IMG/VR virus record: IMGVR_UViG_3300034198_007374
Span: 1 to 22,373 of that record
Strand: one strand, 5' to 3'
DNA length: 22,373 nt
Origin: a virus
Under the pieces are notes generated by a model, which ran no database searches, had not been told where the DNA came from, and saw only the letters and a list, made by a program, of their open reading frames with translations. Of this stretch, positions 3,127-22,053 are shown one piece after another. A program made the translations under genes and the position numbers. Numbering within the stretch: the stretch's first letter is position 1; each line of letters begins with the position of its first letter.

Positions 3127-3804
3127 TTAGCAGCTGCAGCCAGAACAGGTACTCTGATTAAATGGATTGTTTGGATCAAATCCATAATTCTTACTTTCAC
3201 CAGTAAGATCATCATTGTTTCCATATGTAGTTCCAAGATTATTTGCCAATGGTATCATAGTTGAACCAGAAGATCCTTTGGTACTTGTATACGGAGAATC
3301 GATATCTTTTTGATTTGTAGCAATCTTTTCGTAACTGTAGGTAAACAGTTCTGCAGTAATTTGATACGTGTAAAGTTTTCCTAATGGGTATAAAGGATTT
3401 TCATGTTCAACAAAGTTTATTTCAAACAATGACTTGGATAATGGAAAATAAATCAAATCACCTTCACGGGGTCTGGTTATGGTAGAATCCATTGCAGTTA
3501 TTTCTTCACCGAATCTACGACGAGCAAAAATTAAACTTATTTTGTCTTTGATTTCCAAACCAAATTGTGTAATAACATCCGTACCATCAAATCCTTTATA
3601 AGAAGCGATATACATTTCTAGTGTATATGCCTTTTTAAACGAAGAAGATGGATCTTCACCAAAAATTGTATCTATACTAAAATATTTTCTAGGAACATAA
3701 TAACAATCCTGTCCCATACCCTGTATCAATTCGACAGTGATATCTTCAACAAGTTTTTGTTCAGAATAAACTGAAGTTGTATTGATGTATGGATTTGTTG
3801 CCAT
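3127..3804 (-). CDS. gp14: Neck protein gp14
   Basis: The 225-aa protein matches the gp14 neck family, which with gp13 forms the collar that seals the packaged head and joins the tail. Typical stretches are QDCYYVPRKYFSIDTIFGED, the region YTLEMYIASYKGFDG, and EGDLIYFPLSKSLFEINFVE followed by the YTYQITAELFTYSYE helix. An AGGATAAT ribosome site overlaps the gp13 stop, with a 1-nt gap. The extreme C-terminus ends STCSGCSC, three cysteines in six residues, which I do not recall in T4 gp14; see findings. Confidence 0.93.
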   Translation of the reverse strand: MATNPYINTTSVYSEQKLVEDITVELIQGMGQDCYYVPRKYFSIDTIFGEDPSSSFKKAYTLEMYIASYKGFDGTDVITQFGLEIKDKISLIFARRRFGEEITAMDSTITRPREGDLIYFPLSKSLFEINFVEHENPLYPLGKLYTYQITAELFTYSYEKIATNQKDIDSPYTSTKGSSGSTMIPLANNLGTTYGNNDDLTGESKNYGFDPNNPFNQSTCSGCSC

Positions 3805-4692: not shown

Positions 4693-5097
4693 TTAGTCGG
4701 TTCCACCAATAGTAACTTGAATTAATTTTAACTCCTCTGGCTCCAAAGATTCTATCTGTTCTTTTCTTTCTTTGATTTCAGGTATATTAAAATTTGGATC
4801 ATAATTACTGAATCCGGGCATGTGGACAGGACAATTTAATACGGGATAATCTAATTTAGAATATTCTGTAGAATCTTTGATTAGCCATGTGTGTGATCTG
4901 TCACCACACCCACATCTTCCACAAAAATGTTTATTTCCTTGTTCATGGCTAATCCGTAAAAATGGACATGGGCTAATTTTATTTTCTATTCCAAAACAAG
5001 AAACAACCCGCAACTGTTTTGTTTCTAGATCGGTTTTTTTATTTCCTAAACCTCTAGAAGCCAAAGATGCCGCAAACATAACCATTTGTTTAATCAT
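4693..5097 (-). CDS. Conserved-looking Cys-rich (possible zinc-binding) protein
   Basis: The 134-aa protein is not recognised. Residues 34-86 hold seven cysteines and three histidines in a pattern suggesting one or two metal sites: SCFG, SPCPF, HFCGRCGCGDRSH and NCPVHMPGF. The C-terminus (about 107-134) is charged and helical. A hydrophobic N-terminal stretch (MVMFAASLASRG) is short and not convincing as a membrane anchor. A GAGA ribosome site is seen, and the gene begins 13 nt after the wedge gene. Its place between wedge and neck genes suggests a virion or assembly role, but function is unknown. Confidence 0.8.
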   Translation of the reverse strand: MIKQMVMFAASLASRGLGNKKTDLETKQLRVVSCFGIENKISPCPFLRISHEQGNKHFCGRCGCGDRSHTWLIKDSTEYSKLDYPVLNCPVHMPGFSNYDPNFNIPEIKERKEQIESLEPEELKLIQVTIGGTD

Positions 5098-7982: not shown

Positions 7983-9953
7983 TTAACAGCTTCCATCCAT
8001 AACATTTTCAGCCCAAAAATAGACTAATTGATCATTAGCACCAACTTGTTGTATGCATACACGCGCAATGTGTACAATATCTCCCGAGTCAGAAATACTA
8101 GAACCTATGGCACCAATTGGACGATATTTAAAATTACTAGATGGAGCCGAAATGGGTACCCATCCAGGTGGTAAATAATTTCCAGTCAATCCACGTTCAT
8201 TTAAATTTATAGCCCAAGTATTATCTTGAGTTATTCCAGATTTGATTGATGGATCGAGAGACCACTGTTCAATTTGATGCCCCTCATAAGTATTGCCGGA
8301 TCTACCGCTTGCAATTCCATATGCACTTGTTACACCAGAAGCACCTGAAGTAAAATTTAATTTATTCCATTTATATCGATAATATTTTGCACCATTTGGT
8401 CCAGTTTGACCTTGTCCGTGATACGGTCCTTGTTCTGAATAATAGGTTGAATCTGGTTCATATCTCTGTAAAACTGCAAAGAAACAATCTTCTGAATTTC
8501 CCATACAACATAATGAATACATTACAAAATTTTGCTTTTCAATTTGTCTCAATTTAGTTAAACGGTCTCCACCTGTAGTACCATCCAATGGCAAGGGACC
8601 ATCATAATAATTTAAATAATTTGAGACATAATAACGAATCTGCATTATTTTATCCAAATACGTATCTTTTCCTGCTACTATTTTTGATGTTAATGGATCT
8701 GGATAATTTGGATGTATTGGAGTCAAATCAAACATATTTTTCCACATATCGGGGCTATCTAAAAATGGCATATATCCAGTTTTACCCATAAAATTCAATG
8801 TTTGATATGCGTCATTTGTTCCATAATTGTTATTAAGAAAACTTGGATTTGATTTATTATTTGTTGGAACATTTCCATCAAAATATCCCCAACTATTTTC
8901 AACCATCAACCTATCTCCACCTTTTGGTGCAGTATTTCCTCTTCCATCTATAGTTACTATATCAATATTATATTTTTCGCCATCATCTTGAAAGTGAAAT
9001 GCCAAATTTCCTCTGGTATAAGACTCTGAATCAGCATCTTCTGCAAGAAATTCGGTCGGCAATTCATCCAGATATTTTGGTGTTTTTCTAACATAATAAT
9101 AATTTTTAGAAATCCATTGAAATGCTGGATTAGTAGCAAAAAAGTATGCTTTTCGATATATTTTTTTATCAGAAAGTTTTTGTATAACAGAATCACCATT
9201 AAAAACGGCTATATTTCTATAATCAGCATCTATTGTTTTATATGATGGATCTTGTGTAAGCCCTCTTTGAAAATATTTAAAATTTACATCTCCACCAAAA
9301 CTTGTCCAAAATAAAAAATTTGGTGATTGGCCAGTCACTCCTACAGCACCCGTAGAAAGATAATTTAACATTTCTACTGCGTTGTCGGGGATTGTTTCTT
9401 CCCGATTATTAAATGGTATTAGTGGTTTATATAAAAAATAATTGCTTGCAGAATCGCTATACCCACCAGTATTTCCAAAAATGTCCTTTTTTAATATCTT
9501 TACAAATTCATCAATAGTAAAAACTGTTGGACGCCCATATCCCTGATTAGACATCAATTCAGTTAAAGTATTTGAAGAAAAATAACGATAATATGAATTG
9601 GTAAAATGAATTACAAATATATTATCTTCAGTATCGGAAGCCGCATTACTGCTATATGATGCGCTGGTAATATCACAAATCCATTTTGAACCATTAAAGA
9701 ATTCAATGATAACATTTGTAATATTATTGTAACCGATATAACTTGCTATATCTCTAAGATCCGTAACACCAATACTTCCATTTGGAAATACATCATTAAT
9801 ATTTTCAACTGTTTCAAGTCGCTCAAATCTACACTGTGTGTTTTGTTGCAATATGTTTAAAGCATTAGATGTAGTACCATCTGATTTGCTGGTTAAATAA
9901 ATAGCCTTTATTGTAGAATACGCAGGATTAAAATTTTTACTTGTATTAGGCAT
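7983..9953 (-). CDS. Baseplate hub protein, gp27-like (large)
   Basis: The 656-aa protein is likely the central hub that joins tube and spike. Residues about 40-165 follow the N-terminal barrel of gp27-like hubs: CRFERLETVENI, SIGVTDLRDIASYIGYN, then VIIEFFNGSKWICDITSAS, an IFVIHFTNSYYRYFSS strand pair and the helix TIDEFVKILKKDIFG. Residues 240-450 include a hub-like middle with many aromatic residues. T4 gp27 is 391 aa, so there is a large extension (residues about 450-656) that I do not recognise. The place between gp53 and gp25 suits a hub. The assignment is by pattern and synteny, not a firm match. Confidence 0.6.
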   Translation of the reverse strand: MPNTSKNFNPAYSTIKAIYLTSKSDGTTSNALNILQQNTQCRFERLETVENINDVFPNGSIGVTDLRDIASYIGYNNITNVIIEFFNGSKWICDITSASYSSNAASDTEDNIFVIHFTNSYYRYFSSNTLTELMSNQGYGRPTVFTIDEFVKILKKDIFGNTGGYSDSASNYFLYKPLIPFNNREETIPDNAVEMLNYLSTGAVGVTGQSPNFLFWTSFGGDVNFKYFQRGLTQDPSYKTIDADYRNIAVFNGDSVIQKLSDKKIYRKAYFFATNPAFQWISKNYYYVRKTPKYLDELPTEFLAEDADSESYTRGNLAFHFQDDGEKYNIDIVTIDGRGNTAPKGGDRLMVENSWGYFDGNVPTNNKSNPSFLNNNYGTNDAYQTLNFMGKTGYMPFLDSPDMWKNMFDLTPIHPNYPDPLTSKIVAGKDTYLDKIMQIRYYVSNYLNYYDGPLPLDGTTGGDRLTKLRQIEKQNFVMYSLCCMGNSEDCFFAVLQRYEPDSTYYSEQGPYHGQGQTGPNGAKYYRYKWNKLNFTSGASGVTSAYGIASGRSGNTYEGHQIEQWSLDPSIKSGITQDNTWAINLNERGLTGNYLPPGWVPISAPSSNFKYRPIGAIGSSISDSGDIVHIARVCIQQVGANDQLVYFWAENVMDGSC

Positions 9954-9954
9954 A

Positions 9955-10827
9955 TCAACTATACTTAGTGGTTATAAATGAACTCTGAACAAATCCAAGT
10001 TGACTGGGAACATATGCTTGAATTTGTTTTGGAGCGTTGTTAACAGTTTGTTGAATTGTATAAGTGAGAGTTGGAGCTGTGCTTCCAGCAGGAACCGCTA
10101 TTTGATTTTCATCATCCGGAGCAGGAACAGCCTGTGGTTGTACATAATCAATTGTTCTGTTTCCGGTTGTAGTTTCTCTGTAAATTGTCTGGGCTTGTGT
10201 ATTTTGAATAATTTGAATTATTCTATCACCTGAAGATTTTTTATTTCCTGTGTAATATGTCCCGGCCCAAGTATATGTACCATCTACATTTTTTTGTATT
10301 ACGGTAACGTGGTCTGCTGTACCTGTAACACTAATAAAAGTACTGTTGTACTGTGGGCCTATAATCATGTTTCCATCATAGAATGATGTGGCCTCTACTA
10401 TTGTAAATGGACCATTTACATCAAAATTACCAGTTACACCCAATTGATAGGATGCTCCAGTATTTCCGGTATAAGGCATTATTATACTTCCCGGATAGAA
10501 AGACGAAGCGCCTGTAGTTACTCCGGGGCTTGAAAATAGTAATAAGTTTATTTTACTGATATTTTGTTGAGAATATACAGTACTATTTGGTGCCAATAAA
10601 TCAAATGGATTCACAGTTTGATTGGCTGCAACAAATGTCCAAAAACTATTAACATCATTATAGACTCGATATGCGGCTTCTACCAAAGTTGTTTTATCAT
10701 CGACTTTAGCGGTAGTTATATCAATTGCATTTCTATTAACATCCAGATAAGTAAAAAAATCAGAAATGCTAAAAGATCCAATAGAACTATTAAAACCTGT
10801 TTGTGGTAGATTTTTAAAAAATTTCAT
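9955..10827 (-). CDS. gp53: Baseplate wedge protein gp53-like
   Basis: T4 gp53 (196 aa) clamps neighbouring wedges around the hub. This 290-aa protein has the family's N-terminal layout (MKFFKNLPQTGF, then SDFFTYLDVN) and a LysM-like segment at about 48-80: LVEAAYRVYNDVNSFWTFVA followed by NQTVNPFDLL. The remainder (about 100-290) is Gly/Thr-rich beta sequence longer than in T4 and unrecognised. It overlaps the preceding gp48-like gene by ATGA, consistent with coupled synthesis. Confidence 0.75.
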   Translation of the reverse strand: MKFFKNLPQTGFNSSIGSFSISDFFTYLDVNRNAIDITTAKVDDKTTLVEAAYRVYNDVNSFWTFVAANQTVNPFDLLAPNSTVYSQQNISKINLLLFSSPGVTTGASSFYPGSIIMPYTGNTGASYQLGVTGNFDVNGPFTIVEATSFYDGNMIIGPQYNSTFISVTGTADHVTVIQKNVDGTYTWAGTYYTGNKKSSGDRIIQIIQNTQAQTIYRETTTGNRTIDYVQPQAVPAPDDENQIAVPAGSTAPTLTYTIQQTVNNAPKQIQAYVPSQLGFVQSSFITTKYS

Positions 10828-11645
10828 GTTGATGTGCCAAAATATCTATAAGAAATTTCAGATTTGGATTGAACTCCATTTACAGAAGGATCATATGATC
10901 CTGTTTCAAATTCACTAAACACCAAACCCAACATTGTTAATGAGGATTTTCCATCTGGTAAATATCTGATTATAGGATCACTTTCATCATTTTTTTGAAC
11001 TTTTACTGTTTCTAATACACACACTAATGGTTCTCCCAACCAATCTGCAGTCAAATCAGTATTTGAACCAAACGCCACACCATTTCCTCTAGAAACTTGC
11101 AACGTCCACAATTGCTGTGGATATGTTCTTTCAGGCAATCCTGTAGCAACAGTGGGATAAGAGGATTTTCTAAAAGTTCCAATAATATTATCTATTTGAA
11201 ATGATTCATCTGCATTTTTTGGTGCAAACAAATATTGAAAATAATATTTCTTTCTTGCTTCTGATACCATTGTTGCTTCAGCAATATTACTAAATCTACG
11301 ATAAGTTGAGGTAGCAAACATTCTTTCCCAATAAAATGTTGCTGGTTGCAAAGTTCTTTTTAAAACACTTATAGCACCCTGCGCACCACCACCTGAATTT
11401 GCGATACCAGCACGACTCAACATCGGTCCTACAGGATTGTTGTTGCTTTCACCGTATTCATGTGCAGCAAGATATCCCGGTTCTTTTGGCATCGGTAGAA
11501 CTAGGTGGGCAAATGCTCTATTAATTACACCTGCTCTGGTTCTATCTGAATTTACTAATGAGTATCCAGCACAATAAAAATTCATCCACATAGGTTGTTC
11601 TGCGGCATAAGATCCGTATGGATATTGGAAGTAATACTGTGCCAT
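10824..11645 (-). CDS. gp48: Tail tube cap / baseplate-tube junction protein, gp48/gp54-like
   Basis: The 273-aa protein fits the gp48/gp54 family that sits on the hub and starts the tail tube. Supporting features are IVL-type N-terminal strand LPMPKEPGYLAAHEYGES, the pattern TFYWERMF followed by a conserved helix KKYYFQYLFAPKNADESFQI with IIGTFRKSSYP, and a C-terminal strand set ending in LTMLGLVFSEFETGS. gp48 and gp54 are paralogues and I cannot separate them with certainty. The location upstream of gp53 is as in many T4-type phages. The ATG lies 6 nt after a TCTAAATA late element with no Shine-Dalgarno. Confidence 0.68.
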   Translation of the reverse strand: MAQYYFQYPYGSYAAEQPMWMNFYCAGYSLVNSDRTRAGVINRAFAHLVLPMPKEPGYLAAHEYGESNNNPVGPMLSRAGIANSGGGAQGAISVLKRTLQPATFYWERMFATSTYRRFSNIAEATMVSEARKKYYFQYLFAPKNADESFQIDNIIGTFRKSSYPTVATGLPERTYPQQLWTLQVSRGNGVAFGSNTDLTADWLGEPLVCVLETVKVQKNDESDPIIRYLPDGKSSLTMLGLVFSEFETGSYDPSVNGVQSKSEISYRYFGTST

Positions 11646-17448: not shown

Positions 17449-17733
17449 ATGTTTAAAGGACAGTTTAAATTTAATAATGCTAATGGAATATCAAGTACTT
17501 ATTCCATAGGAGATATTGTTACATATCAAGGTAAATTATACAGAGCAACTAAATTAAATCAAAAAAGTCCAATACAAGATCCAACAAGTTGGAAATATTT
17601 AAACAATACAGAACCTTTTAAGGGATCTTTACCACCAGTAAATCCGAAAGAAAATCAAATTTGGGTTGCTGATTCGGGAATTAGTTATATTTATTTTTAT
17701 GATGGTGATTCATATCAATGGATTGCTGTATAA
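17449..17733 (+). CDS. Small carbohydrate-binding/fibre-tip-like protein
   Basis: The 94-aa product has two short modules. Residues 17-50 (YSIGDIVTYQGKLYRATKLN, then PTSWKYL) fit the CBM5/12-like aromatic pattern of small polysaccharide-binding domains. Residues 60-93 (LPPVNPKENQIWVADSGISY, then YFYDGDSYQWIAV) match a motif common at phage fibre ends. It follows the 427-aa gene with a 2-nt gap and ends 2 nt from a convergent gene. A role in host surface contact is inferred. Confidence 0.6.
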   Translation: MFKGQFKFNNANGISSTYSIGDIVTYQGKLYRATKLNQKSPIQDPTSWKYLNNTEPFKGSLPPVNPKENQIWVADSGISYIYFYDGDSYQWIAV

Positions 17734-17735
17734 TT

Positions 17736-18191
17736 TTATTTATTTTTTGCACCACAATTACAAGATCTTTTTGGATTTCTTACCAAGTTACGGGATAATG
17801 GTTTGTGTTCTTTATGATTTGAATCTTTTAAATCAATAGTAACAAGTTCTGATGTTTTCCAATCTTCTGGAAGAGATAATCGATTATCAATATAAACAAA
17901 TGGTATATAAAAATTCCATTTATTAAAATATTGTCTTCTTTTTTCACAACCACATTCTTTAAATAATTTAGTAATCAACCATTTCAATCCAGTTTTTTTA
18001 GTAATTGTATCAATAATATCGCCTACTGGTTTTTCTAAAAAACCAAACTTTATAGAGATTGATTTTTTATAATTTTTTTTACGTTGTTCATTCCATGATT
18101 TCATCTGTTGCTTATCTGTTAATTCTAAAATATCAGAAGTGTTTATTTGTTGTTTTATTCCGTTGATTATTACTGTTTTATTTGTATTCAT
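17736..18191 (-). CDS. Phage protein with conserved-looking CGCxxRR motif
   Basis: The 151-aa product shows a central block GFLEKPVGDIIDTITKKTGL followed by KELFKECGCEKRRQYFNKW-like sequence (residues about 50-93; visible order C-G-C-E-K-R-R). This resembles a small domain I have seen in many phage proteins with a 'GdvIekiTkatGIk...CGC.kRk..LN' pattern. Function is unknown. The C-terminus ends with a second pair, CNCG. It follows the 1275-aa gene by 9 nt with a GAGAA ribosome site, so it is cotranscribed with it. Metal binding is possible. Confidence 0.7.
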   Translation of the reverse strand: MNTNKTVIINGIKQQINTSDILELTDKQQMKSWNEQRKKNYKKSISIKFGFLEKPVGDIIDTITKKTGLKWLITKLFKECGCEKRRQYFNKWNFYIPFVYIDNRLSLPEDWKTSELVTIDLKDSNHKEHKPLSRNLVRNPKRSCNCGAKNK

Positions 18192-18200
18192 ATAAAATTC

Positions 18201-21200
18201 TCAATATTCATATATTGCTGGATCAATATCGGTATCTATTATATGTGGTAATTTAATTCTACCACTTTTAGAAATCTTACACCAAAATGGATTTGATGTA
18301 CAAGTACCATCATTGCCAACCTTATTCAGGAATCCAGCCATTAATGCACCTGGACATAATATTTCTCCTACAGAAGTTGGAGTTTGACATATGCACCATG
18401 CATATGGATTTGAACCCGGATCTGGCACTCCACACGAACTTTGACATTCTGCAATTGTTTGAACGGTTTTTCCCATTGGTGTATCAGGTGTTAATACATG
18501 AAGAGGTGCTGGTACATTTATTATATTTTCTGTATAATACAAATTTCCATTTGGATCTTCTTGTGGAGAATAAAAATGTGTATTTAAATTTTCTTGATAT
18601 TTTTGTACTTTTCCACCAAATCTTGCATAGCAATAATTGTTTCCAGAGCACTGGCAAATAGTACAACTTACATTTTCGACTGTGTGTTGCTTTCCCCAAC
18701 CATAACTGGATGTTGAACATACAACAGCAAGGGGATGATATTCAAAACCATTATAACCACAATTAAAATCACATGAACCTACTCCCAAAACTGGACACGA
18801 TTTCGCACCGCATTCACATATGTCGCATGGATTTGTAATAAAATTATTTTTTGGTTCTGGATTTGTCGCTCCAAATTCTCTAAATGCCTCTGGTGATTCT
18901 GGACATTTAACAAAACAAGCATCTCCACATTCATTACATTTTTTAGATGGTCCAAACAAAATATTTGACCACTCTTGTGAGGTTATTTTATCGTTTGGTG
19001 ATTTTCCAATACATTGGCAGCAAGTAATACCAAATAAATCTTTGCATAATTTATTATCTATTCCCGTAGTATTTGGATCGAATAAAAAATTTACGGCTGG
19101 AGCACAACTTGCTGAACATCGTGCTCCACAACAAAATTGACCTTTACATATACTATTACTTGGAATCGAACAATCTTCGACACATCTAACAGAAGATGGA
19201 GCTCCACTGGGATCCCAACATATTCCTTGATAACCACATTCAACGTTGTTTGGATTAGTTGGATCACTATCACCACCAACACTATAACCATTATCGCTGC
19301 ATTTTGTTGATTCTAAATCCTGATTGAGATTAATTCCGCTGCATAAAGTTAAAATACCATTATCAAAATTTGATTCCTTAGGAGAATATTTAATTAATAC
19401 ATTTGGTGCATACCACATATTTTCTGGATGGAAAGTAATATCTGGACCATATCCGTATATATTAAATGGACTACAACCCGTTGAATCACCGCTGCAATAT
19501 TCGCAGTCATCAATATTTAAACACAAGCTTCCCCATTTAACTAAATTCCATGTTCCGGGAATGGCTCTAAAAAATAATTGTCTATTCACATAACCAGGAG
19601 CATTTTTACTATACTGTTTATCAGTATTATAGTATTTTGAATACTGTAAATCTTGAATTTTATATTCTGAAGGAAATCCCGATCCAACACTAGGATCTAT
19701 TTCTCCAGTTATACAATTATAAAATCCAGTTTCGTGTTCTTTAAAAATTTTATCTGGATTTACTGTATTTTCCTTATAGAGAATAAGTCCACCATATGGA
19801 ACTGTTTTTCCATCTCCATACCAACCATATTGCCCTTGACCACTTGGATCTCCCCACTGCAAGTAGTTTGGTGGTATTACTTTTCTAATTGGAGCAAATT
19901 GTGCCAATCCATCAATACCGCTCTCCGGGAACATTTCTGCTGGAGTACACATTCTTCCATAAGCATCATAATATTTTTGTTTTAATGAAATAAAATCACT
20001 GGGTGGCACTGGAACCGGATATCCCGGTTCCCATGGAAGATAATATGCACCACTTGGACCGTTCGCCATTCCAGTTTCAATTATCTGTTTAATCTCATTG
20101 TAGATATTTTCTCTGTGATCTCTTGTACCGATAATTCCGGCTTCGCACATGGCTCCCAAAATATCTCGAACAATTTGAACGTATTTGTGTCCATCACTCG
20201 AACAACCGGGTGGAAACATTCCTTTTCCACGACCATCTGGTAATCCATTATCTGAAATAGAATTGCTAAACATACTAAAGTATGATAGAAATTTTTCAAC
20301 TGTCATCGGAATAGATCCTTGTGATTGATCTGGATCTGCAAATGCCTCAAAAATTCCCAAACGTTTTGCATATTCTAAATCAAACTGGAATAAAGGAGTT
20401 CCAGAACTTTTATAAGTAAAAATTTTAGGTGTAGTTCTTGTAAGCCAGTATCCCCATCTATCTTTTGGATTTGCGGATGATCCATTAGTTCCAGTTCCTC
20501 CAAATCCTGTTTGTGGTGGAATTGTAGGTCCAGCAGCATTTACGTCGTCTAAATTAGTACCCATATAATGGAAGTAATGTTCTAAATGAACAGTTCCAAC
20601 AAATTGGCTAAAGAATGTGCTCTCGCCAAGCATTGGTGTGTATTGTTCCATTTTAAATGTGTAATTTGAAGTATCTGGAGTTTGGGCTATACCAAAATTT
20701 TCTCTATGCAATTGTTCATAATCATATAAACCATAATCACCCAATCCAGTAGTTATGTAACTTACACCCAAATCATATGTTTTTACAGGTGAACTAACAT
20801 CACCACCACCGGCACAGAACACATCAAAAGCCCAAGGATAACTTGTCAGCATCAATCGACGCATATATGGACTCATAGCACAATAATTACAATAATTTTG
20901 TCTAAATCCTCCACTGGATGGTTTATATAATGTATCAATTAAGTCAAAATTTACAAAAAAAGCAGTACCACCCAATTTAGGTACATTTACACCCATATTA
21001 AAAGTATTATCAGAACCCAATATAGTTGATGTTTTTTGTGAATTTGTACGACCTTGTAGTGGCGAATAAAAAACATCTCCCTGTGCTGCTATACGTGTTT
21101 CTATAATTCGTGTAGTTAACATAGGAGTATGATTTAATACCGTAGTCGCATATTGATCCATCCACTCGCAGTCACTGGCACTTTCATTACCATTAGCCAC

Positions 21201-22028
21201 TTTATTCCAACAACTTACAGTAGGATCTACCAAACGAACTGGCGATGTATTTTTTGGATCTTCATAACAAGTACAACACGGAGTCATATCTTTGATGTTA
21301 TGAGAAGGATACAAAAATGATGTGTATTGAGTTAGCCAACCACCTATTGGAAGCCATGCTCTTCCCGTCATAGCCTCATCATTAGGTCCACCCGGAACCC
21401 TTATTGGAGAGGTTATGACATCTCCCCATATATTAAAATCATTCTCATGTGCTTCAGCAACCCAAGGTAATATTTGTGTACAACTGTCACATTTATTTGG
21501 TCTAGTCTCTATATTGTCAGTACTATAATCAGTTCCATAAATTTTTTGATAATAACAGTTTGAAAGATGTGAAACGCTAAAATCAAATCTAGGATCAAGT
21601 AGTGAAAATGCAGAACATTGTGGTATATTGGGGTCACCGTTAACAGCATATTTTGGTGGATACCAAGTCCAAGCACACCCAATATTTTTATATTTTTGTC
21701 TAACGGTTCGTGTTCTGGTTGGATATAGTTTTGTTTTTCCATAACAACATTTACAACCATCATTGGTAATTTTTTCTACTTCATTACCACTTTTGTAAAC
21801 GGCATCAGAACCAACACGTTGAAATAAAATGATTTCATCATCTGGATGTATTGGGTATACATTTACATTTTTAACTGTTTTATAACCACCAGTATCTGGA
21901 TCTGTTATCAAATTTCCATTAGAATCAAGAGCATATTCTCTATCAACTAATAGGTCACCGAGCATTGCGACATTATTTGTATAATTATACGGAGCGCAGC
22001 ATTTACAACAACAAGCTTTTTTAGGCAT
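18201..22028 (-). CDS. Giant cysteine-rich late protein (1275 aa)
   Basis: I do not recognise this protein. By my count it has about 65 cysteines. It opens with CCCKCC (residues 6-11) and has pairs or trios such as DGCKCC (about 92), CDSC, CCTC and CNYC. Residues about 840-1140 hold around 33 cysteines in spaced patterns like small disulfide or metal-knot repeats (CNECGDACFVKC, CDICECGAKSC, CTICQCSGNNYC). The central part (about 330-830) is aromatic- and Gly-rich without cysteine repeats. No signal peptide or membrane segment is evident, and it starts from a perfect late promoter, so a virion or host-contact role is likely. A very large phage-encoded metal-binding protein is an alternative. 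The ribosome site is TGAGAA. Confidence 0.8.
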   Translation of the reverse strand: MPKKACCCKCCAPYNYTNNVAMLGDLLVDREYALDSNGNLITDPDTGGYKTVKNVNVYPIHPDDEIILFQRVGSDAVYKSGNEVEKITNDGCKCCYGKTKLYPTRTRTVRQKYKNIGCAWTWYPPKYAVNGDPNIPQCSAFSLLDPRFDFSVSHLSNCYYQKIYGTDYSTDNIETRPNKCDSCTQILPWVAEAHENDFNIWGDVITSPIRVPGGPNDEAMTGRAWLPIGGWLTQYTSFLYPSHNIKDMTPCCTCYEDPKNTSPVRLVDPTVSCWNKVANGNESASDCEWMDQYATTVLNHTPMLTTRIIETRIAAQGDVFYSPLQGRTNSQKTSTILGSDNTFNMGVNVPKLGGTAFFVNFDLIDTLYKPSSGGFRQNYCNYCAMSPYMRRLMLTSYPWAFDVFCAGGGDVSSPVKTYDLGVSYITTGLGDYGLYDYEQLHRENFGIAQTPDTSNYTFKMEQYTPMLGESTFFSQFVGTVHLEHYFHYMGTNLDDVNAAGPTIPPQTGFGGTGTNGSSANPKDRWGYWLTRTTPKIFTYKSSGTPLFQFDLEYAKRLGIFEAFADPDQSQGSIPMTVEKFLSYFSMFSNSISDNGLPDGRGKGMFPPGCSSDGHKYVQIVRDILGAMCEAGIIGTRDHRENIYNEIKQIIETGMANGPSGAYYLPWEPGYPVPVPPSDFISLKQKYYDAYGRMCTPAEMFPESGIDGLAQFAPIRKVIPPNYLQWGDPSGQGQYGWYGDGKTVPYGGLILYKENTVNPDKIFKEHETGFYNCITGEIDPSVGSGFPSEYKIQDLQYSKYYNTDKQYSKNAPGYVNRQLFFRAIPGTWNLVKWGSLCLNIDDCEYCSGDSTGCSPFNIYGYGPDITFHPENMWYAPNVLIKYSPKESNFDNGILTLCSGINLNQDLESTKCSDNGYSVGGDSDPTNPNNVECGYQGICWDPSGAPSSVRCVEDCSIPSNSICKGQFCCGARCSASCAPAVNFLFDPNTTGIDNKLCKDLFGITCCQCIGKSPNDKITSQEWSNILFGPSKKCNECGDACFVKCPESPEAFREFGATNPEPKNNFITNPCDICECGAKSCPVLGVGSCDFNCGYNGFEYHPLAVVCSTSSYGWGKQHTVENVSCTICQCSGNNYCYARFGGKVQKYQENLNTHFYSPQEDPNGNLYYTENIINVPAPLHVLTPDTPMGKTVQTIAECQSSCGVPDPGSNPYAWCICQTPTSVGEILCPGALMAGFLNKVGNDGTCTSNPFWCKISKSGRIKLPHIIDTDIDPAIYEY

Positions 22029-22045
22029 AATAAGTTCTCACAATA

Positions 22046-22053
22046 TATTTATA
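22046..22053 (-). promoter_or_regulatory. Late promoter TATAAATA for the 1275-aa gene
   Basis: The minus strand reads CGTATAAATATATTGTGAGAAC. The octamer is a perfect match to the late consensus, 17 nt before the ATG at 22028, with a TGAGAA ribosome site between. It sits just downstream of the terminator of the upstream gene. Confidence 0.78.

Follow-up and report, generated by a model that had tools for sequence, protein, structure and literature searches.

A giant cysteine-rich late protein of uncultured T4-like phages as a member of a tag-sharing family of possible interchangeable adhesins

We analyzed a stretch of 22,373 nucleotides from the IMG/VR virus record IMGVR_UViG_3300034198_007374, referred to here as the window. 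Its giant cysteine-rich protein, P0001, belongs to a large family of proteins with a shared tag and is not a lone oddity: the first residues are nearly fixed (MPKK-x-CCC) and the bodies are very different between phages. The family has the appearance of a surface or host-binding protein which is interchangeable and carries a constant tag for attachment. We give a probability of about one half to the reading that P0001 is one allele of an interchangeable accessory adhesin of the virion (or associated with the particle), stapled by its cysteines and attached through its tag. Such a protein would be made late in infection. Its constant N-terminus, MPKK-x-CCC and in the P0001 subfamily additionally a domain of 80 to 95 residues with two cysteine clusters, would be the attachment module, and the large body would form a rigid display or receptor-binding part. 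The staples of the body would most likely be disulfides formed once the particle exits the reducing cell, or bound metal. Bodies or C-terminal halves would be traded between phages behind the constant tag, each phage keeping a single cassette, at either of two sites.

The gene of P0001 and its probable late transcription unit

The window originates from the same phage as the 70.7-kb IMG/VR contig 3300032269_000764 (99.992% identity over 12,170 bases). The lineage is one of uncultured T4-like phages, and its terminase shares about 47-53% identity with the terminases of Pelagibacter phage Mosig, marine single-cell viruses, Methylophilales phages and cyanophages. Two backbone proteins compared with 50,697 phage records gave no match, the psbA family as a clue to a cyanophage host was found in 0 of 12 partial contigs, and seven stretches scanned for tRNAs contained none. 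An IMP dehydrogenase/GMP reductase-like gene (L001:3383-4435, labeled by reading) is 74-84% identical across the listed loci. The features of the window that are relevant here are the following.

18201-22028, minus strand: gene of P0001, a giant cysteine-rich late protein of 1275 residues with 66 cysteines (open reading frame and cysteine count)
22005-22028, minus strand: tag MPKKACCC, residues 1-8 (cysteines 6-8 present in all 16 contigs whose gene start is intact)
21744-22028, minus strand: N-terminal domain with two cysteine clusters (CCCKCC...CKCC), about residues 1-95, probable boundary
20064-20648, minus strand: conserved block, about residues 461-655, common to relatives of 2.0-2.5 thousand residues (jackhmmer domains)
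19125-19691, minus strand: conserved block, about residues 780-968 (jackhmmer domains)
18630-19523, minus strand: densest cysteine region, residues 836-1133, 34 cysteines in 298 residues (cysteine positions)
22046-22053, minus strand: octamer TATAAATA, beginning 25 nt 5' of the ATG of P0001
22060-22093, no strand assigned: terminator-like hairpin of 15 bp between the preceding gene and the promoter (window sequence)
17736-18191, minus strand: partner gene p151, 151 residues with CGC and CNC motifs, starting 9 nt past the stop of P0001
22111-22347, minus strand: reg91, open reading frame of 78 residues, left flank of insertion site 2 (contig comparison)
16163-17446, plus strand: p427, open reading frame of 427 residues, right flank of insertion site 2 (contig comparison)

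The reading frame of P0001 runs on the minus strand from an ATG at 22028 to a stop codon ending at 18201 and begins with MPKKACCCKCC. Its 66 cysteines compare with 12.7 expected from the 24 other proteins of the window (58 cysteines in 5838 residues, 0.99%; binomial P about 1e-26). The original prediction, which did not state the strand, had its facts right and its interpretation partly right: it had named about 65 cysteines, a CCCKCC opening and a region of about 300 residues with roughly 33 cysteines, all of which our counts bear out. According to the cysteine positions, the conserved block at about residues 780-968 extends into the densest region.

A late promoter had been claimed as well. 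The octamer TATAAATA, which corresponds to the core of T4-type late promoters, is by itself not rare at 34% GC; counting both strands of the window together, three copies are present and about six are expected by simple arithmetic. Of 16 distinct homologous genes, the P0001 gene included, 10 have it no more than 60 nt upstream, and five of the six genes without it have CTAAATA in the printed upstream sequence. Because of the position of the octamer and its recurrence upstream of homologues, the late promoter of P0001 is credible. A hairpin similar to that of the window is visible at the equivalent place in L181, L184 and L186. The partner gene p151 is likely cotranscribed with the P0001 gene, as suggested by their arrangement. 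Homologues of p151 lie downstream of the tag gene in L088 (61.4% identity), L065, L067, L086 and others, and most tag genes are followed by a partner, either p151-like or a protein of about 200-225 residues with a CxxC...CxxCGC pattern.

A constant tag, a separable N-terminal domain and variable bodies

Using the protein encoded at 10824-11645 as query, we obtained 59 loci in IMG/VR. Upstream stretches were taken from 17 contigs according to the available length, mostly with a cysteine-rich reading frame in view and never on the basis of the tag. The gene start is intact in 16 of them (L077 is cut), corresponding to 15 distinct ones as L078 equals L063. In all 16, a giant cysteine-rich reading frame of at least 688 codons has cysteine as its residues 6, 7 and 8. 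When the tag was used as a DNA pattern to scan IMG/VR, 40 stretches were recovered, comprising 27 complete cysteine-rich reading frames, six cut at the end, three with a stop after codon 80 and four short chance frames (L085, L093, L099 and L109). In GTDB genomes, which served as chance control, the same pattern gave 56 stretches without a single long cysteine-rich reading frame (longest 140 residues).

The 33 pooled non-redundant tag proteins comprise 288-2490 residues and 17-96 cysteines; this pool was picked by an expression requiring CCC and therefore cannot test the tag. The cysteine content of tag proteins is 3-6%, and they are mostly acidic (D+E 6-14%, K+R 5-9%) with 0.4-1.7% histidine. 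Only M1, C6, C7 and C8 are invariant across an alignment of 28 members. L088 is the only full-length close relative of P0001 found (688 of 1230 aligned residues identical). Seven longer relatives (2036-2490 residues) have blocks around residues 1-30, 73-158, 460-655 and 780-968 in common, not each block being found in each protein.

The counterpart of the N-terminal domain of P0001 exists as a separate gene of 77-80 residues in nine contigs. In L087, L103 (the same gene) and L092 (the same contig as L183), codon 80 is followed by TAA, and translation could resume at an ATG two to three codons further on, the frame then being part of an open stretch that measures 1846 or 2097 codons. L181, L182, L184, L185, L186 and L187 contain a free reading frame of 77 residues (MPKKACCQC...) before a body frame located in an open stretch of 1837-1849 codons. 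With CCxC instead of CCC, these six split genes show that the tag has exceptions. The separate N-terminal reading frame of the relatives implies that P0001 is the fused form of a two-gene arrangement, or the reverse.

Searches of Pfam, PHROG and NCBIfam with P0001 gave no match, and tblastn of P0001 and three relatives against 50,697 phage records was likewise negative. A PDB sequence search with both profiles returned nothing useful; an antibody chain at E 0.29 was rejected. Literature screened by title and abstract contained nothing describing a giant cysteine-rich family with MPKK-x-CCC. Remote homology searches thus agree with the prediction of a novel protein, and a known fibre family, named there as contrary evidence, was looked for without a match to P0001. 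AlphaFold2 runs of both halves of P0001, with alignments of six and nine rows, reached pLDDT values of 30.0 and 29.9, too low to reveal a fold such as an elongated beta-structured shaft. Among the 28 members, RCC1-like matches occur in six, glycine-rich-domain matches in six and collagen matches in two; any one tail-fibre PHROG is matched by at most two of the 28, and 10 of 15 tag proteins scanned singly had no Pfam match at 0.01. The glycine-rich and collagen matches may be low-complexity matches, and the collagen match of L064 falls below the Pfam cut-off. The RCC1-like stretch of L086 (residues 1367-1504) lies in a part without P0001 counterpart. All three kinds of module in relatives would fit an adhesin, if weakly. 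The same contig has genes for ordinary collagen-like tail fibres at other positions (L080:14500-17607 and 17618-19798); as these coexist with the tag protein, a P0001-type protein does not have to be the sole fibre. A run of sugar-nucleotide/glycosyltransferase-like genes, assigned by reading, was noted near these fibres (L079:12386-19901 and L080:24-6784).

The RCC1-like stretches in long relatives would suit a late protein outside the virion, set free when the cell lyses or active on the host surface, for example in superinfection exclusion or as an effector with an RCC1-like propeller. The terminator and promoter of the gene make it an independent late unit, which agrees with such a role. 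We nevertheless regard it as rather improbable, since inspection of the printed N-termini by eye revealed no secretion signal and P0001 matches none of the effector families of Pfam, PHROGs or NCBIfam. Packaging into the head and ejection is slightly less probable still. T4 internal proteins carry a capsid-targeting peptide which is cleaved by the head protease, and a short constant N-terminus for sorting, variable bodies and late expression would follow the same logic; however, proteins of up to 2490 residues that are mostly acidic and cysteine-rich fit poorly with passage through the tail, and some relatives contain fibre-type modules.

Two insertion sites and exchange of bodies

Tag genes are located either in the p124/p121 interval (first site) or in the reg91/p427 interval (site 2). 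Both sites could be judged in 22 contigs, in which the tag gene was present at the first site only (17) or at site 2 only (five), never at both and never at neither. Fifteen of these contigs had been found independently of the tag, via the protein at 10824-11645; the other seven came from the tag scan alone, which cannot reveal "neither", and several contigs represent the same phage from different samples. Thirty further contigs were judged at a single site. The contigs are partial. In L066 and L075 the order around p124 to p190, tag gene and p121 deviates as if a block were inverted.

Comparison of related phages revealed how the tag genes change. Between L065 and L067, p121, SprT199, reg91, p124, p102 and p186 are 91-100% identical and a partial p151 89.8%, with the tag protein at 66%; a body swapped on a conserved backbone, as expected of an exchangeable receptor-binding cassette, is thus found. 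For the tag genes of L112 and L074, dN is 0.02-0.05 in the first 600 codons and 0.24, 0.34 and 0.60 in the last three blocks. A dN/dS of 1.45 for p190 of the same pair was discarded as a probable artefact of the reading frame. Judged from these comparisons, the bodies are mosaic, with whole bodies or C-terminal halves swapped behind the constant tag. Tag genes do not always diverge faster than their surroundings, as the tag proteins of L063 and L115 are 96.9% identical and their dS (0.089) is below that of the backbone (0.17-0.44), which suggests a recent transfer of one tag allele. In all blocks of the tag genes dN/dS is below 1, indicating real proteins under constraint.

A conserved promoter and 5' end would favor body swaps also if the 5' end were only a recombination anchor at the DNA level and the tag had no role in the protein. 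This is very improbable, because synonymous codons of the tag vary (CCT/CCA/CCC for proline, AAA/AAG, TGT/TGC) while the residues are constant, and because the tag occurs at two genomic sites with different flanks and on stand-alone reading frames. For the novel adhesin of the original prediction, the evolution of the family (body exchange, mosaic C-terminal halves and two sites) is adhesin-like; P0001 itself has no match to an adhesin family.

Conserved cysteines and a candidate docking signal

Between P0001 and L088, 62 of 66 cysteines are kept compared with 688 of 1230 residues overall (56%), and in all 13 pairs compared, from several subfamilies, cysteine ranks first or second among the residues in conservation. 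The emphasis that had been placed on the cysteines is thereby justified. Their parity was rejected as a signal, as some of the 33 proteins have an even and others an odd total. Another cysteine-containing protein of the window (4693-5097; 134 residues, 4.5% cysteine) has a CGRCGCG motif resembling a zinc ribbon and no family match.

The bacterial cytoplasm is reducing, and cysteines could coordinate metal there. A giant structural protein loaded with zinc or Fe-S, with the CCC tag as metal-dependent clamp, is therefore one rival reading, and P0001 contains nine CxxC motifs with 4.1 expected (sd 1.8); the CxxC...CxxCGC patterns of partner proteins point in the same direction. Pooled over 22 proteins, however, CxxC is weakly enriched (80 versus 66.4, z 1.9), so metal loading is not specifically supported; together with CxC (87 versus 66.5, z 2.7) this is no strong finger or ribbon signature, and histidine is low (0.4-1.7%). 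We rate such a metal-loaded structural protein as unlikely. Glutaredoxin and thioredoxin encoded by the phage as folding helpers were each absent from 12 partial contigs, and a search for Erv1/Alr was silent, as were its controls.

Doubtful as well, if marginally less so, is the idea that MPKK-x-CCC is a new kind of phage docking signal, a constant cysteine plug which would join unrelated giant bodies, in cis or through a separate adaptor of 77-80 residues, to a socket on the particle made of thiols or metal. Among 36 other query proteins of the lineage, and leaving aside gp17, seen in one copy, only three almost always have a cysteine among their last 15 residues: gp14 (20 of 21 copies), a tail-region protein of 656 residues (29 of 29) and, in 5 of 5 copies, the partner p151. 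A candidate socket may be among them, and the first two serve as leads to the docking partner. The protein of 656 residues (7983-9953) ends with cysteine and has no match in PHROG, Pfam or phage records; all 29 distinct homologues have a cysteine in the last 15 residues, in the printed copies as the final residue. The gp14-like neck protein (3127-3804) ends with CSGCSC, and 20 of 21 distinct clade copies contain at least one cysteine in the last 15 residues; three of four gp14 tails from other T4-like phages have none near the end. The CxxCxC tail was rejected as a clade trait, since most clade copies have one or two cysteines there.

If the adhesin reading with its tag is true, the lineage would rapidly change its surface or host-binding protein by plug and socket, with one short cysteine tag, many giant bodies and two parking sites. 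Among phages, whose assembly takes place in the cytoplasm, a protein so dense in cysteines and probably stapled would be unusual, and MPKK-x-CCC would be a sequence handle to candidate host-binding proteins missed by family libraries.

Several known systems share parts of this organization. The T4 internal proteins likewise combine a short constant N-terminus with a variable body, but they are much smaller than the tag proteins (288-2490 residues) and are not known to carry a cysteine tag. Pairs of fibre and adhesin or chaperone of the gp37/gp38 type also consist of a variable late gene with a small partner directly after it; they differ in that no sequence match exists and the partner here is a cysteine-motif protein that falls into no known family. 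The families of tail fibres and collagen-like minor tail proteins (PHROGs 5073, 6320 and 30509) are large late proteins too, and a few relatives match them weakly, whereas P0001 matches none of them and has a CCC start and, like its family, 3-6% cysteine. The host-recognition cluster of pelagimyophages, as described in the main text of PMC7029224, is a hypervariable region of T4-like aquatic phages with host-recognition proteins and glycosyltransferases, positioned between VrlC and gp14; this main text nowhere uses the word "cysteine". The gene of P0001 (18201-22028) does not occupy this location: gp14 lies at 3127-3804 with the gp13-like to baseplate genes on the side opposite the cysteine-rich gene, and VrlC was not identified. 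Unlike the cluster portrayed in that text, the variable cysteine-rich gene of this lineage resides at two other sites.
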